Origin: Daejeonella sp. H1SJ63
GTDB taxonomy: Bacteria > Bacteroidota > Bacteroidia > Sphingobacteriales > Sphingobacteriaceae
Assembly: GCF_029360775.1 (NCBI RefSeq)
Contig: NZ_JARKMZ010000028.1
Span: 620,001-684,000 of the forward strand
Direction: 5' to 3'
DNA length: 64,000 bases
Under the pieces are notes generated by a model. That model saw only the letters and a list, made by a program, of their open reading frames with translations, was not told the DNA's origin and ran no database searches. Of the stretch, positions 22,498-40,946 are shown piece by piece. Position numbers and translations under genes: made by a program. Each line of letters starts with the position of its first letter. Position 1 is the first letter of the stretch.

Positions 22498-23067
22498 TTG
22501 GCATTAGGAAGACCAGGCTTTAACAGAGGACCACGCCCTCCGTTCAAAAAGAAAGAAGCAGAACACAAGATCAATGATTTGATCAGAGCGCCTGAAGTGC
22601 GCTTGACTGGTGATAATGTGGTAACAGGTATTTATCCCTTTAGAGAAGCTTTAGCTTTAGCTGAAGAACAGGGACTTGACCTGGTAGAGATTTCCCCAAA
22701 TGCAGTTCCGCCCGTTTGTAAGATTGTTGACTACAACAAATTTATTTACGAGCAGAAGAAAAAAATGAAGGAAATTAAGTCCAATGCAAAACAAACGGTT
22801 ATCAAAGAGATCCGTTTTGGACCTAATACCAACGATCATGATTTTCAGTTTAAATTGAAACATGCGATCGGGTTCCTTGAAAATGGAGAAAAAGTACGTG
22901 CCTATGTTCATTTCAAAGGCCGTGCAATTGTATACAAAGAGCAGGGTGAGATTCTTTTATTAAAGTTTGCTCAGGCTCTGGAAGATGTGGGTAAAGTTGA
23001 ACAGCTTCCAAAACTTGAAGGGAAACGGATGTTTTTAACTGTTGCTCCTAAAGCAGGTAAAAAATAA
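22498..23067 (+). CDS. infC: Translation initiation factor IF-3 (InfC), non-ATG start
   Basis: This 189-residue factor binds the 30S subunit and checks start codon-anticodon pairing. The N-domain has [18 protein letters not shown] and [22 protein letters not shown]; the C-domain has [20 protein letters not shown]. The only reasonable start is the TTG at 22498, 11 nt after thrS; no in-frame ATG lies between the thrS stop and the conserved region. A rare start codon is the classic means of infC autoregulation (AUU in E. coli), because IF-3 discriminates against non-AUG starts. Confidence 0.96.
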
Positions 23068-23098
23068 TTCAGTTTGTCTGTTACGATGTGCCGTCATT

Positions 23099-23146
23099 GA
23101 CAAATCGAATAATAGACAAATAGACAAATCGAATAATTGACAAATA
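23099..23146. repeat. Two 24-bp tandem repeats in the infC-rpmI gap
   Basis: Two adjacent 24-bp units (23099-23122 and 23123-23146), each beginning GACAAATCGAAT and ending GACAAATA, differ at one base. They fill most of the 92-nt gap before rpmI, where other bacteria carry the L20-binding translational operator. Whether they have any regulatory role is unknown. Confidence 0.75.
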
Positions 23147-37355: not shown

Positions 37356-38459
37356 ATGAAAAAGAAACATCTGATAATTTTCCTGACTTTGATATTTATT
37401 GTTTTTGGCTGTAAGAAGTCAGCCAGAAAGACACCTGAAGCAGCTGTGCCGGCAGTTAATATTGATATTCAGATTTTAACGCAAAACTTAAGTTTTCCAT
37501 GGGAGCTGATTTGGGGATCTGACAATATGATCTGGATGACTGAACGCGGAGGGAAAATAAGCAGGATTAATCCGGTTAGTGGAGTACCCACTTTGTTATA
37601 TACGATCCCTGATGTAAAATCCTTAGGAGAGGGTGGCCTGCTTGGTATGGTTCTGCATCCATCTTTTAGTACAGATCCCTATGTATTTGTTGCTTATAAT
37701 TACGATAAGGCAGGCTCTTATACAGAAAAAATTGTTAGATATACCTATAATGGTGCCTCATTGGCAAATCCAATAGTTATTCTCGACAATATTCCTGCAT
37801 CAAGTATCCATAATGGGTGTCGTCTTCTGATCAGCCCAGACTTAAAGCTATTTATCAGTACCGGAGATGCTGCTAATCAATTGTCAGCACAAAATATTAA
37901 TTTATTAAGCGGTAAGATCTTAAGATTGAACCTGGACGGCACAATTCCTTCAGATAATCCCATCAGCAATAGTCCGGTATGGTCATTTGGTCACAGGAAT
38001 CCTCAGGGTCTGGTTTTTATTAATTCAATTCTTTTTAGTTCTGAGCATGGTCCTAATGTGGACGACGAAATTAATATCATTCAAAAAAACAGAAATTTTG
38101 GATGGCCAAATGTCAATGGATTCTGTAATGAAAGTGCTGAACAAACATTCTGTGCCAACAATAATGTTGTTGAACCTATAAAAAGCTGGACACCTACCAT
38201 TGCTGTTTCAGGAATTGATTATTATAATCATAATGCCATCCCGCAGTGGAAAAATTCCATATTGCTGACAACTTTAAAGGATCAGACATTGTACCACTTA
38301 AAGTTAAATACTTCAGCAGATAAGATCGATGAAGTTAAAGAAATATTCAGAGGAAGTTATGGTCGCCTGAGGGACGTATGTGTTGCACCTGATGGGAAAG
38401 TCTATGTAGCCACAAGTAACGGATCTAATGATAAAATACTTGTTATCAGGCAGAATTAA
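37356..38459 (+). CDS. PQQ-dependent sugar dehydrogenase-like lipoprotein
   Basis: This 367-residue exported protein has a lipobox near residue 19 (FIVFGC). It is a six-bladed propeller of the glucose/sorbosone dehydrogenase family: FPWELIWGSDNMIWMTERGG, LGMVLHPSF, NGCRLLISPDLKLFISTGD, WSFGHRNPQGLVF and SEHGPNVDDEINII are all recognisable. It probably oxidises a sugar or sugar acid in the periplasm with PQQ as cofactor. It begins 26 nt after mutS2, but the functions are unrelated. Confidence 0.9.
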   Translation: MKKKHLIIFLTLIFIVFGCKKSARKTPEAAVPAVNIDIQILTQNLSFPWELIWGSDNMIWMTERGGKISRINPVSGVPTLLYTIPDVKSLGEGGLLGMVLHPSFSTDPYVFVAYNYDKAGSYTEKIVRYTYNGASLANPIVILDNIPASSIHNGCRLLISPDLKLFISTGDAANQLSAQNINLLSGKILRLNLDGTIPSDNPISNSPVWSFGHRNPQGLVFINSILFSSEHGPNVDDEINIIQKNRNFGWPNVNGFCNESAEQTFCANNNVVEPIKSWTPTIAVSGIDYYNHNAIPQWKNSILLTTLKDQTLYHLKLNTSADKIDEVKEIFRGSYGRLRDVCVAPDGKVYVATSNGSNDKILVIRQN

Positions 38460-38507
38460 TTTGAAGTAATTTTACTTAATTGGCAATCTCAATTTGAAAA
38501 ATCACAC

Positions 38508-39206
38508 ATGATCAATAAAGTTGTTTCTGGTGCCGATGAGGCCATTAAGGATATTGAAAGCGGAATGACCCTGATGTTAGGAGGTTTTGGTTTATGCGGT
38601 ATTCCGGAAAATTGTATAGCCGCCCTGGTCAGGAAAGGTGTAGATAGACTTACCTGTATTTCAAACAATGCCGGAGTTGATGATTTCGGAATCGGTTTGA
38701 TGTTGAAACAAAGGCAGGTAAAGAAGATGATTTCTTCATACGTTGGAGAAAATGCTGAATTTGAAAGGCAATTATTGAGTAATGAACTTGAAGTTGAACT
38801 TATACCTCAGGGTACGCTTGCAACGCGTTGTATGGCAGCTGGTTACGGTATGCCTGCAATATTTACACCTGCAGGGGTAGGTACAGAAGTGGCTGAAGGT
38901 AAAGAAGTCAGGAATTTTAACGGTAAAGACTATCTGATGGAGATGGCTTTTAAAGCTGATTTTGCGATTGTAAAAGCATGGAAAGGTGATACTGCCGGTA
39001 ATCTGATATACCGTTCAACTGCAAGAAATTTCAATCCTGTGATGGCAATGGCCGGAAAGATTACAATTGCTGAAGTAGAGCATCTTGTAGAACCCGGAGA
39101 ACTTGATCCGGATCAGATTCATACTCCGGGTATTTATGTCCACAGGATATTTGAGGGCTCTGATTATGAAAAAAGGATTGAGCAGAGAACGGTAAGGACA
39201 AAATAA
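38508..39206 (+). CDS. scoA: 3-oxoacid CoA-transferase subunit A
   Basis: This 232-residue subunit begins MINKVVSGADEAIKDIESGM and carries the CoA-binding signature LMLGGFGLCGIPENCIAALV at about residues 24-43. With ScoB it moves CoA from succinyl-CoA to a 3-oxoacid such as acetoacetate, feeding ketone-body or branched-chain breakdown. The partner scoB is 440 nt downstream instead of adjacent, because an S23-type gene lies in between. Confidence 0.95.
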   Translation: MINKVVSGADEAIKDIESGMTLMLGGFGLCGIPENCIAALVRKGVDRLTCISNNAGVDDFGIGLMLKQRQVKKMISSYVGENAEFERQLLSNELEVELIPQGTLATRCMAAGYGMPAIFTPAGVGTEVAEGKEVRNFNGKDYLMEMAFKADFAIVKAWKGDTAGNLIYRSTARNFNPVMAMAGKITIAEVEHLVEPGELDPDQIHTPGIYVHRIFEGSDYEKRIEQRTVRTK

Positions 39207-39220
39207 TTTGAAGATTGGAG

Positions 39221-39236
39221 GATTTGAAAATTTGAT
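39221..39236 (+). repeat. Left inverted repeat of the S23 gene unit
   Basis: GATTTGAAAATTTGAT is an exact 16-bp inverted copy of 39623-39638. It lies just before the four-helix gene and just after the scoA stop. Confidence 0.65.
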
Positions 39237-39242
39237 GATGTA

Positions 39243-39593
39243 ATGAGAGATGATAAAGAAAATTTAATTGTCAAACTGACATTTGATTTTGCACTTCAAA
39301 TTTTAAAATGCACAAGGGAATTACAAAGGTCACATGATTACTCATTAGCAGATCAATTGTTGAGATCGGGTATTTCAATAGGAGCAAATGTTAGAGAGGC
39401 TCAAAATGCTGAGAGTAAAGCTGACTTTATTCATAAAATGAAGATTGCTGCCAAGGAAGCAGATGAAGTTGAATATTATCTTCAGCTAATACACCAATCT
39501 GATGATCTGCCAATAATAGAATTACCACTTGAACAAATTCAATCTATCATCAATCTATCATCAAAAATCATATCATCCTCACAATCTGTATAA
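39243..39593 (+). CDS. Four-helix-bundle S23 (23S rRNA intervening-sequence) family protein
   Basis: This 116-residue helical protein shows the S23/IVP pattern: FALQILKCTRELQRSHDYSL, LADQLLRSGISIGANVREAQ, KMKIAAKEADEVEYYLQLI. The family was first seen in intervening sequences of 23S rRNA genes; relatives include the Avd accessory proteins of diversity-generating retroelements. No rRNA or reverse transcriptase is near. It lies in the scoA-scoB gap and is bracketed by 16-bp inverted repeats. Its 3' end holds an 11-bp direct repeat (39541-39562). Confidence 0.92.
   Translation: MRDDKENLIVKLTFDFALQILKCTRELQRSHDYSLADQLLRSGISIGANVREAQNAESKADFIHKMKIAAKEADEVEYYLQLIHQSDDLPIIELPLEQIQSIINLSSKIISSSQSV
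39541..39562 (+). repeat. 11-bp tandem duplication in the S23 gene 3' end
   Basis: AATCTATCATC occurs twice in a row at 39541-39551 and 39552-39562, inside the last 20 codons of the four-helix-bundle gene. It shifts frame internally, so the two copies encode different residues. Confidence 0.7.
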
Positions 39594-39622
39594 TGCTCAT
39601 CCCATTTTCAAATCACCAAATT

Positions 39623-39638
39623 ATCAAATTTTCAAATC
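39623..39638 (-). repeat. Right inverted repeat of the S23 gene unit
   Basis: ATCAAATTTTCAAATC is the exact inverted partner of 39221-39236. A second partial copy (ATTTTCAAATC, 39604-39614) lies just upstream. The arm ends 7 nt before the scoB start codon. Confidence 0.65.
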
Positions 39639-39645
39639 AAACAAC

Positions 39646-40302
39646 ATGCTTGATAAAACCGGAATTGCAAAACGCATAGCAAAAGAGATTAAAGATGGTT
39701 ACTATGTTAATCTGGGTATAGGGATTCCGACTCTGGTGGCTAACTATATTCCGGAGGGTATAAATGTAGTACTGCAGTCTGAAAACGGCCTGCTGGGAAT
39801 GGGCCCCTTTCCTTTTGATGGTGAAGAGGATCCTGATTTAATCAATGCAGGTAAACAGACAATTACGACTCTTCCGGGATCTGCAATTTTTGATTCTGCA
39901 ATGAGTTTTGGAATGATTCGCTCACAAAAGGTAGACCTGACTATTCTTGGAGCTATGGAAGTATCCGAAAATGGGGATATAGCGAACTGGAAGATTCCCG
40001 GTAAAATGGTGAAAGGGATGGGTGGGGCAATGGATCTGGTGGCATCAGCTAAGAATATTATTGTTGCCATGCAGCATGTGAATAAAGCGGGTGAAAGTAA
40101 ATTACTCACTCAATGCTCACTACCACTAACAGGAGTGAGGTGTGTGAAGAAAATCGTTACAGAGCTGGCTGTATTAGAGATTGCCGAAAACGGTGGATTC
40201 AGGTTGCTGGAACGTGCACCGGGAGTAAGTGTTGAGGAAATAAAGAATGCCACCTCCGGAAAACTGATCATAGAGGGTGAAATACCTGAAATGACTATCT
40301 GA
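39646..40302 (+). CDS. scoB: 3-oxoacid CoA-transferase subunit B
   Basis: This 218-residue subunit starts at ATG 39646 (MLDKTGIAKRIAKEIKDGYY); a longer in-frame reading from 39529 would include non-family sequence read from the S23 gene and its repeat. It has VNLGIGIPTLVANYIPEG and the SENGLLGMGPFP motif containing the catalytic Glu. It completes the succinyl-CoA:3-oxoacid CoA-transferase with ScoA. Confidence 0.95.
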   Translation: MLDKTGIAKRIAKEIKDGYYVNLGIGIPTLVANYIPEGINVVLQSENGLLGMGPFPFDGEEDPDLINAGKQTITTLPGSAIFDSAMSFGMIRSQKVDLTILGAMEVSENGDIANWKIPGKMVKGMGGAMDLVASAKNIIVAMQHVNKAGESKLLTQCSLPLTGVRCVKKIVTELAVLEIAENGGFRLLERAPGVSVEEIKNATSGKLIIEGEIPEMTI

Positions 40303-40304
40303 AA

Positions 40305-40946
40305 TTAGGCTTTCAGAGCTGTTTCTTTGAGTTTTTTAGAAATTTGTTTTGTCACCTCAATGATATCTTCGGCAACATGACTGTTATTTGTAATGATTAT
40401 ATCGCATTCATCTTTATAAGGCAGCAGAAAGTCTTTATAGGCCGGAACAACATGATTGTGCCATTTGTAAAGAACATCTTGTTCAGGATAACCTCTTTCA
40501 AGAAGGTCTCTTTTTAATCTTCTCTGTAATGCAATTTCCTCTTCAGTATCAATAAATATCTTCAGATCAAGCAGATTAGCAATTTCCTTAAAATGAAGAA
40601 TAAATAAACCCTCAACCATTATAATTTGTGCCGGCTTTATTTGGAGAAGTCTGGGTTCAGTATTGTTATTATTGAATGTATATTCTTTGTGATATATAGT
40701 TTCTCCATCGATCAGTTTTTTAATATCGTGGATAAACAAGTCGATGTCAATTGTACTGGGAAGATCAAAATTGTAAAGTTTGTTTTCTTCAGCTGTCATG
40801 GTATGACCAACCCTGAAGTAATAGTCATCCTGTGAAACCAGACAAACCTCTTCAGGTTTGAAGTGATTTAAGAAACATTTTAAAAAGAAGGTTTTTCCTG
40901 ATCCACTGCCACCGGCAACGCCAATCACAAAAGGCCTTTTATTCAT
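40305..40946 (-). CDS. udk: Uridine kinase
   Basis: This 213-residue kinase phosphorylates uridine and cytidine in pyrimidine salvage. The P-loop GVAGGSGSGKT is near residues 8-18, followed by CLVSQDDYYF and IIMVEGLFILHF. Start ATG 40944-40946 is inside the last codons of the LysM gene, an 8-nt overlap, so the two genes are coupled. A GTG three codons earlier is possible. It converges on scoB with 2 nt between the stops. Confidence 0.94.
   Translation of the reverse strand: MNKRPFVIGVAGGSGSGKTFFLKCFLNHFKPEEVCLVSQDDYYFRVGHTMTAEENKLYNFDLPSTIDIDLFIHDIKKLIDGETIYHKEYTFNNNNTEPRLLQIKPAQIIMVEGLFILHFKEIANLLDLKIFIDTEEEIALQRRLKRDLLERGYPEQDVLYKWHNHVVPAYKDFLLPYKDECDIIITNNSHVAEDIIEVTKQISKKLKETALKA

Follow-up and report, generated by a model that had tools for sequence, protein, structure and literature searches.

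The DNA between scoA and scoB of Daejeonella sp. H1SJ63 is probably one copy of a widespread small element, in which an S23 gene lies between inverted arrays of a short repeat unit and the S23 protein acts on its own repeat, and which corresponds, in intergenic DNA, to the intervening sequence of 23S rRNA. The inverted arms recur around S23 genes of related genomes and of other phyla, and the repeat unit is private to the S23 clade.

An S23 gene between inverted arrays splits scoA and scoB

In the window, which is the whole stretch of 64,000 nucleotides analysed here, scoA (38508-39206), the S23 gene (39243-39593) and scoB (39646-40302) are all found on the + strand, and the S23-bearing insert between the two host genes measures about 440 nt. 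The upstream host gene encodes 3-oxoacid CoA-transferase subunit A (TIGR02429, 270 bits) and the downstream one subunit B (TIGR02428, 325 bits), while the gene between them encodes a protein of 116 aa that is of the four-helix-bundle type known from 23S rRNA intervening sequences, as judged by PF05635, TIGR02436 and an AlphaFold2 model. The 5' arm (39205-39238, + strand) starts right at the scoA stop codon TAA and is a degenerate array of 8-nt units of the type ATTTGANN; the 3' arm (39597-39641, + strand) carries units of the same type inverted, with a lag-8 array at 39603-39638. An inverted-repeat search pairs 39205-39238 with 39597-39630 as full arms of 34 nt that are 79% complementary, and the cores at 39221-39236 and 39623-39638 form an exact 16-bp inverted repeat. 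An 11-bp tandem duplication (39540-39562, + strand) lies within the 3' end of the S23 gene. A preliminary description of this DNA had reported an S23-type gene splitting scoA and scoB, exact 16-bp inverted repeats on its two sides and an 11-bp internal duplication, and all three are borne out by the profile matches and the sequence.

The S23 ORF is the sole gene between the arms and matched only S23-type families in Pfam and NCBIfam, and the same search found no recombinase encoded there. A search of Rfam with E values up to 1 found nothing at 38400-40400, and a known RNA family was dropped on that ground. The element is placed between protein genes and not within a 23S rRNA helix. Its arms score 20, a value reached by one of 1000 dinucleotide shuffles of the flanks, while 60 other genes of the window have a median score of 11 and a maximum of 21. 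Since the repeat of the window taken alone is thus only moderately unlikely, the case had to be decided at other S23 loci. There, S23 genes have the same architecture with other repeats, and the arrangement in the window is real.

Inverted arms flank S23 genes in related genomes

At least one S23 gene was found in 38 of 41 genomes (that of the window and 40 relatives), with up to 12 per genome and eight TIGR02436 genes in the genome of the window. The loci read were the best-scoring places together with the scoA-scoB copies, giving 149 different genes, of which 142 from 34 genomes were used and seven were dropped for lack of 200 nt on both sides. The arm score of a locus comes from an alignment of the 200 nt before the gene with the 200 nt after it, the latter reverse-complemented. 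True pairs of arms have a median score of 21 at the 142 loci, compared with 11 for pairs mismatched between loci, which reach 17 at their 95% and 22 at their 99% level; 105 loci score above 17 and 53 above 22. When partners were exchanged within genomes (123 loci), the true pairs gave 22.07 versus 11.43 with an sd of 0.17, and none of 1000 re-pairings reached the true value. Arms are not seen at every S23 locus, 22 of the 142 scoring below 16, and the own partner of an arm is the single best of all 142 at only 36 loci, in our opinion because relatives share units. Two S23 genes lie about 1.7 kb apart at L087, L088, L094, L096, L098 and L135, which belong to several genomes of the genus, and where these genes were typed their clades and heptamers differ; L106 has three S23 genes.

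The repeat unit follows the S23 clade

The arms are degenerate quasi-tandem arrays of 7-nt, sometimes 8-nt, units. Of 155 loci, among them 13 on plasmids, 120 score at least 17, and in these the best lag is 7 in 102, 8 in 14, 4 in three and 9 in one, with an identity of 0.59 at lag 7 and 0.56 at lag 14 against 0.31 in shuffled sequence. The unit of the window, ATTTGANN, is of the 8-nt form. Units vary by locus, as exemplified by AGTATTG, GTTATCA, ATTACGA, TTGACAG, GAGATGT, GGTATGA and TTAGTTG. The preliminary description had expected the same repeat pair around S23 genes at other loci; instead, each clade has its own unit, and a repeat common to all S23 loci was dropped as an explanation because the units differ between loci.

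Among pairs of S23 genes without a blastn-detectable common flank, arm similarity is 7.9-8.7 where protein identity is below 50%, 18.2 for the 25 pairs at 60-70% identity and 21.2 for the 11 pairs above 70%; the similarity of arms in opposite orientation stays at about 7-10 across the bins of protein identity. Some of these pairs may occupy one and the same site in genomes that have diverged. In a check by tblastx, L052 stays apart from the 12 others of its clade, as do L012 and L141 from the remainder of theirs, so that high-identity pairs at truly different sites are few.

With complementarity unused and period alone as the guide, arms were found on both sides in 127 of the 142 loci, and such arms match their own partner at 17.3 and a random partner at 6.5. 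For pairs of S23 genes at the same place with 55-65% identity, an arm matches its own partner at 16.5 and the same arm of the orthologue at 10.1, the own partner being better in 86 of 95 pairs, whereas at 80-100% identity the arm of the orthologue is closer (25.2 versus 16.0 for the own partner, which is better in 3 of 62). The word therefore drifts, and both arms drift together. Whole 126-nt flanks gave the contrary result, orthologous flanks on average matching better than own arms in all four bins, with own arms ahead in 72 of 324 pairs, because they include neighbouring coding sequence; the result used for joint drift is that of the period-only arms, which replaced them. The arms belong to the S23 gene rather than to the site, and the unit is private to the S23 clade.

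Filled, decayed and empty junctions

A scoA match was found in 34 of the 41 genomes; 30 scoA-scoB loci were read (four matches had no locus), and scoB adjoins in 27 of them (three had no scoB in reach). An intact S23 gene is present at six of the 27 junctions, namely in G000, G006, G009 and G018 of the genus and in G038 and G039 of other families; three junctions (G005, G010 and G011) hold an S23 gene that is decayed, as judged by eye, and 18 have none, with a gap of 1-18 nt in six of the 18. In G019 and G007 the inverted arms persist at this junction without the S23 gene. Against its own proposal the preliminary description had set a gene present at the same place in all relatives, with repeats unconserved and empty sites never found, and these junctions display a different picture.

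The junction of metH and metF (gene names assigned by eye) was read at 18 loci in the 20 genomes of the genus. An S23 gene of clade A with the unit GTTAGTTG is found there in G000, G006, G009 and G011, and in decayed form in G010; one of clade B with GTTATCA is found in G001, G002, G007, G016, G017 and G019; and G014 has a third S23 gene with an AGTATCA-like unit. No S23 gene lies between metH and metF in G015 (gap of 5 nt), G018 (no gap), G005 (20 nt), G012 (54 nt) and G004 (405 nt, made up of other sequence); G013 is assigned to neither state. In the tree, clades A and B are neighbours that may go back to a single insertion, and the G014 copy is elsewhere with weak support.

At both junctions the arms start at the stop codon of the upstream gene and end just before the next start codon, and the gaps of empty sites are a few nt, a length at which target duplications are unreadable. 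No movement event was seen among the S23 loci compared; S23 pairs occupy the same site in 37 of 37 cases at 90% identity or above and in 39 of 42 at 80-90%, as vertical descent predicts. The filled and empty junctions and the generality of the arms support the suggestion of the preliminary description that the S23 gene and its repeats may be a small mobile or RNA-level unit inserting in intergenic DNA.

Gene-less arrays are scattered in genomes

Three consecutive TTGACAG units, with up to three mismatches, have 39 matches in the genome of the window. Beyond the S23 locus on contig C1, TTGACAG inverted pairs are found there at five places, none of which is one of the eight S23 genes. Twenty gene-less arrays were chosen from many and read; of the seven places read in the genome of the window, TTGACAG forms inverted pairs at five, whereas L241 and L242 have a different word as their second arm. 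Four spacers of G008 (L244, L245, L246 and L250) are patchworks of several heptamer words, of which some also occur in S23 arms, as if elements had been inserted into one another.

Across the 20 genomes of the genus, where the matches of a word overlap and hence are not counts of arrays, GTTATC matches number 23-577 in all 11 genomes with clade A or B and 0-6 in all nine without (p 8e-5; this and the following p values take no account of common descent among these genomes and are uncorrected for number). TTGACAG matches number 29-156 in the five genomes with the clade and 0-33 in the other 15 (p 7e-4), presence being what was seen among the loci read and the other 15 being classed without a protein search for the clade; G006 and G019 carry a sister clade of the TTGACAG S23. 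Since TTGACAG abounds and GTTATC is scarce in G018, with the opposite in G002, the counts do not reflect a general richness in repeats. The arrays of GAGATNT (p 0.013) and ATTTGANN (p 0.011) follow the S23 clade only in part. G006 also has plentiful GAGATNT arrays, and they are present in G015, where no S23 gene was found; ATTTGANN arrays are almost absent outside their own arms in G000 and G018 and are present in G019, whose scoA-scoB junction holds repeats only. A prediction made beforehand, that GAGATNT would be high in G001, G007, G008 and G011 and ATTTGANN in G000, G006, G009, G018 and G011, came true only in part. The two genomes of the genus without S23 genes have none of the four words (G013), or none of three together with 11 GAGATNT matches (G015). 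Reversed TTGACAG is a rotation of itself and provides no control, while the reversed GTTATC pattern is several-fold below the pattern in array-rich genomes, though not zero. The number of arrays clearly follows the S23 clade for two of the four words.

The window itself holds a gene-less array at 23066-23146, identified by a lag-8 scan, the sequence and its fold, in the spacer that precedes an apparent rpmI (named by eye). Its 8-nt unit is a related one (TTGACAAAT / TAGACAAAT) with a partial inverted copy, TTTGTCTGTTA, and units of the TTGACAAAT type are also found in G019 and G007, in the scoA-scoB spacers that lack the gene. This array is possibly a small relative of the S23-type element.

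The same architecture in other phyla and on plasmids

A scan of named genomes gave at least 582 confirmed S23 stretches, of which 80 loci were examined. Their median arm score is 20.5, compared with 10 for mismatched pairs (95% at 16 and 99% at 21); 51 loci score above 17 and 29 score 17 or less, and the lag is 7 or 8 in 49 of the 51. Grouped by record titles, scores above 17 are found in cyanobacteria (5 of 7 loci), alphaproteobacteria (4 of 6), the PVC group (7 of 9), Clostridia and relatives (6 of 9), Patescibacteria (3 of 4), Bacteroidota and relatives (18 of 32), Acidobacteria (1 of 3), Chloroflexi (1 of 2), Fibrobacteres (1 of 1), gamma- and betaproteobacteria (2 of 2) and others (2 of 4), as well as on one archaeal contig. 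For the 73 named loci with both neighbours called (the 80 less four left out and three without a downstream call), the orientation is ++ in 52, -- in 5, +- in 11 and -+ in 5, and sense orientation between co-directional genes is strongly favoured, by 52 to 5.

Thirteen of 30 S23-bearing plasmid records were read, 12 of them cyanobacterial and one from Riemerella. Arms are visible in all 13 plasmid loci, with scores of 18-34, and nine of them exceed every mismatched pair. Sites of the plasmid S23 genes include nrdB/nrdA, on the opposite strand, as well as cas6/cas4 and cas10/cmr3. Cyanobacterial S23 genes sit between heptamer arrays, GGGAGTA, AGCTAAA and CAGGGAA among others. S23 elements within CRISPR operons were observed on cyanobacterial plasmids at L194, L199 and L201, twice at cas6/cas4 and at cas10/cmr3. 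The label '23S rRNA IVP' stands in a figure legend of a survey of CRISPR-associated genes (PMC10910872), and such elements may explain it.

The S23 protein is conserved

The S23 protein of the window matches PF05635 with E 1.8e-22 and 80 bits (cut-off 33.8) and TIGR02436 with 89.4 bits (cut-off 24). Its AlphaFold2 model has four helices with a pLDDT of 86.9, and the solved structure closest to the model by Foldseek is 2rld (39-40% identity, TM 0.70). The model also matches 2gsc, which is Xcc0516 of Xanthomonas campestris; for S23 of that species a pentameric ring is reported (PMC4990558). A weaker Foldseek match is to Avd of the ribonucleoprotein of diversity-generating retroelements (8ub7, TM 0.67, E 0.07; 4dwl, TM 0.64, E 0.45), and PF05635 has been reported as similar to Avd (PMC10053308).

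The S23 protein is under purifying selection, with dN/dS of 0.03-0.28 and a median of 0.11 for 19 of 21 S23 pairs, the other two having no finite value. Among 139 S23 sequences, the conserved residues include, in the numbering of the window, Q38 (0.99), R41 (0.92), E52 (1.00) and E75 (0.99). A single in-frame stop breaks the frame in four of 46 named S23 genes checked (L289, L295, L302 and L349). L155 (G032:C51) has its S23 match within an open frame of 492 codons and is possibly a fusion. An anti-phage defence system was dropped as a candidate because the two proteins submitted to PADLOC had no match.

Comparison with known systems

Like the rRNA intervening sequences of Coxiella, Leptospira and others, the element of the window has an S23 gene, complementary ends and a similar size, and unlike them it lies between protein genes. 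The intervening sequence in the 23S rRNA of Coxiella is described as 428 nt long, with an S23 ORF and a 28-bp terminal stem that is cut by RNase III, and with tandem heptamers GACAGAT immediately ahead of the S23 gene, two or three of them and one degenerate copy, the number varying by strain (PMC4990558). Heptamers of this kind before S23 are also found in the class described here, with period 7 in 102 of 120 loci, while the period in the window is 8. The Coxiella ORF is described as decaying (PMC4990558), unlike the S23 genes under purifying selection reported here. Clade-private units and gene-less copies in trans, both found in this study, do not appear in what that account says of the Coxiella element (PMC4990558).

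The class resembles the degenerate heptamer arrays of cyanobacteria, known as short tandemly repeated repetitive (STRR) sequences, and the TAACTGA heptamers of Beggiatoaceae in being made of degenerate 7-nt tandem arrays in intergenic DNA, those of the window being 8-nt. Heptamer arrays are reported in Beggiatoaceae, cyanobacteria and some Bacteroidetes, in a paper whose main text makes no mention of S23 or a helix bundle (PMC4679880). Nor are these mentioned in the main text that reports the GGGAATC heptamers of X. campestris, with 186 arrays and 70 close inverted pairs (PMC4692102); this species is also the host of the solved S23 structure 2gsc (Xcc0516). In Nostoc, stem P6b of the tRNA-Leu intron is described as built of 7-nt repeats, where motif classes replace one another while the stem is kept (PMC4476775). 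The S23 arms likewise stay matched while the heptamer word changes, although the P6b heptamers belong to a group I intron, in whose description no S23 gene figures (PMC4476775).

Based on these comparisons, we rate the S23 element as a variant of the intervening-sequence kind.

Alternative explanations

The alternative that survives best, which we nevertheless regard as unlikely, is a unit that works at the RNA level only, in which a transcript stem over the S23 message protects it or permits its excision by RNase III, as happens with rRNA intervening sequences, and in which presence and absence reflect old gains and losses rather than mobility. The sense orientation within operons seen among co-directional neighbours (52 versus 5) fits this alternative, as does the S23 intervening sequence of Coxiella, whose 28-bp terminal stem is cut by RNase III (PMC4990558). 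The scoA-scoB elements, when folded, also close with a terminal stem, but this is weak evidence, since any strand with an inverted repeat folds into a stem. If pairing in the sense RNA were selected, mismatches should favour G-U pairs, whereas the arm mismatches at 120 loci comprise 184 wobbles of the sense type and 244 of the antisense type (35 versus 55 loci, p 0.045). No excess of sense G-U pairs was found among these mismatches, which points to the DNA level or, at the least, away from a sense RNA stem as what is kept; sense-RNA pairing as the selected feature thus receives no support from the counts. The scattered gene-less arrays are also left unexplained by a unit of this kind.

REP sequences and their RAYT offer a second comparison, in which a driver gene with its own hairpin repeats has many gene-less intergenic copies, and the REPs of one RAYT have a constant foot sequence. 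S23 as a driver gene with scattered gene-less copies resembles this layout, though in the S23 protein no catalytic domain was recognised by Pfam or NCBIfam. The arms might also be REP-like hairpins that a Y1 transposase (RAYT) moves in trans, the S23 gene being cargo. We consider this improbable, more so than the RNA-level alternative: the S23 arms have no constant foot between loci, as judged by eye, and the unit follows the S23 protein.

Ordinary heptamer microsatellites arising from polymerase slippage, with S23 genes as chance neighbours, are strongly disfavoured and in our estimate very improbable. Heptamers have been reported as the most abundant category in most genomes rich in such repeats, and slippage has been proposed as their cause (PMC4679880, citing Mrazek 2007), and units differing by locus would be allowed. 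Slippage, however, yields direct rather than paired inverted arrays, while the two sides of one S23 locus match in direct orientation with a median of only 12; moreover, an arm pairs specifically with the one across its own S23 gene, and the unit stays with the S23 clade from site to site.

Least probable of all is that the element belongs to a diversity-generating retroelement or some other reverse-transcriptase system with S23 as an Avd-type helper, because, although the S23 model has a predicted four-helix fold similar to that of Avd (8ub7 and 4dwl), the protein of the window has no match to the Avd model at its cut-off of 80 bits (NF033474) and seven other S23 proteins reach at most 37 bits, and because RVT_1 (PF00078) is found in only three of the 20 genomes of the genus, with no match in the genome of the window, in 16 of the 19 others or in the GTTATC-richest G001, G002 and G008, so that a resident reverse transcriptase receives no support as the mover.

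Proposed mechanism and implications

We therefore return to an S23 element that acts on its own repeat, whose movement and chemistry we infer as follows. The S23 protein, which to judge from its homologues is a four-helix bundle that forms rings, would bind its own repeat word and would promote the spread or persistence of arrays and elements, both in cis and in trans. Such spread would use the replication and repair of the host, with no enzyme of the element's own. The element, usually in sense within operons, would be expressed from the host transcript, of which the S23 part may be closed by a long stem.

To our knowledge, S23 proteins have long been known from rRNA intervening sequences without a function being assigned to them. 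Short heptamer arrays in cyanobacteria, Xanthomonas, Beggiatoaceae and others have been ascribed to polymerase slippage or to an unknown regulator. In the open-access full text searched, with most subscription papers outside its scope, we found no paper that joins heptamer arrays with intergenic S23 genes. More tentatively than for the insert itself, and with somewhat less than even confidence, we propose that S23 proteins drive heptamer repeats across bacteria: each clade may recognise a private word of 7-8 nt, keep its arms in step and spread gene-less inverted arrays, without a recombinase or reverse transcriptase of its own. The rRNA intervening sequences and the cyanobacterial STRRs may then be two faces of one repeat-driving, selfish class.

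If S23 genes sit in clade-private arrays that multiply with the clade, heptamer repeats gain a candidate driver and S23 proteins a candidate substrate. If true, this would be an unusual selfish element, about 440 nt long here, with one protein of 116 residues, no recognised enzyme and arms that drift and yet remain matched, and found mostly in sense orientation in operons such as scoAB, metHF and cas. It may also explain the origin of the long-puzzling seven-letter repeats in bacterial genomes.
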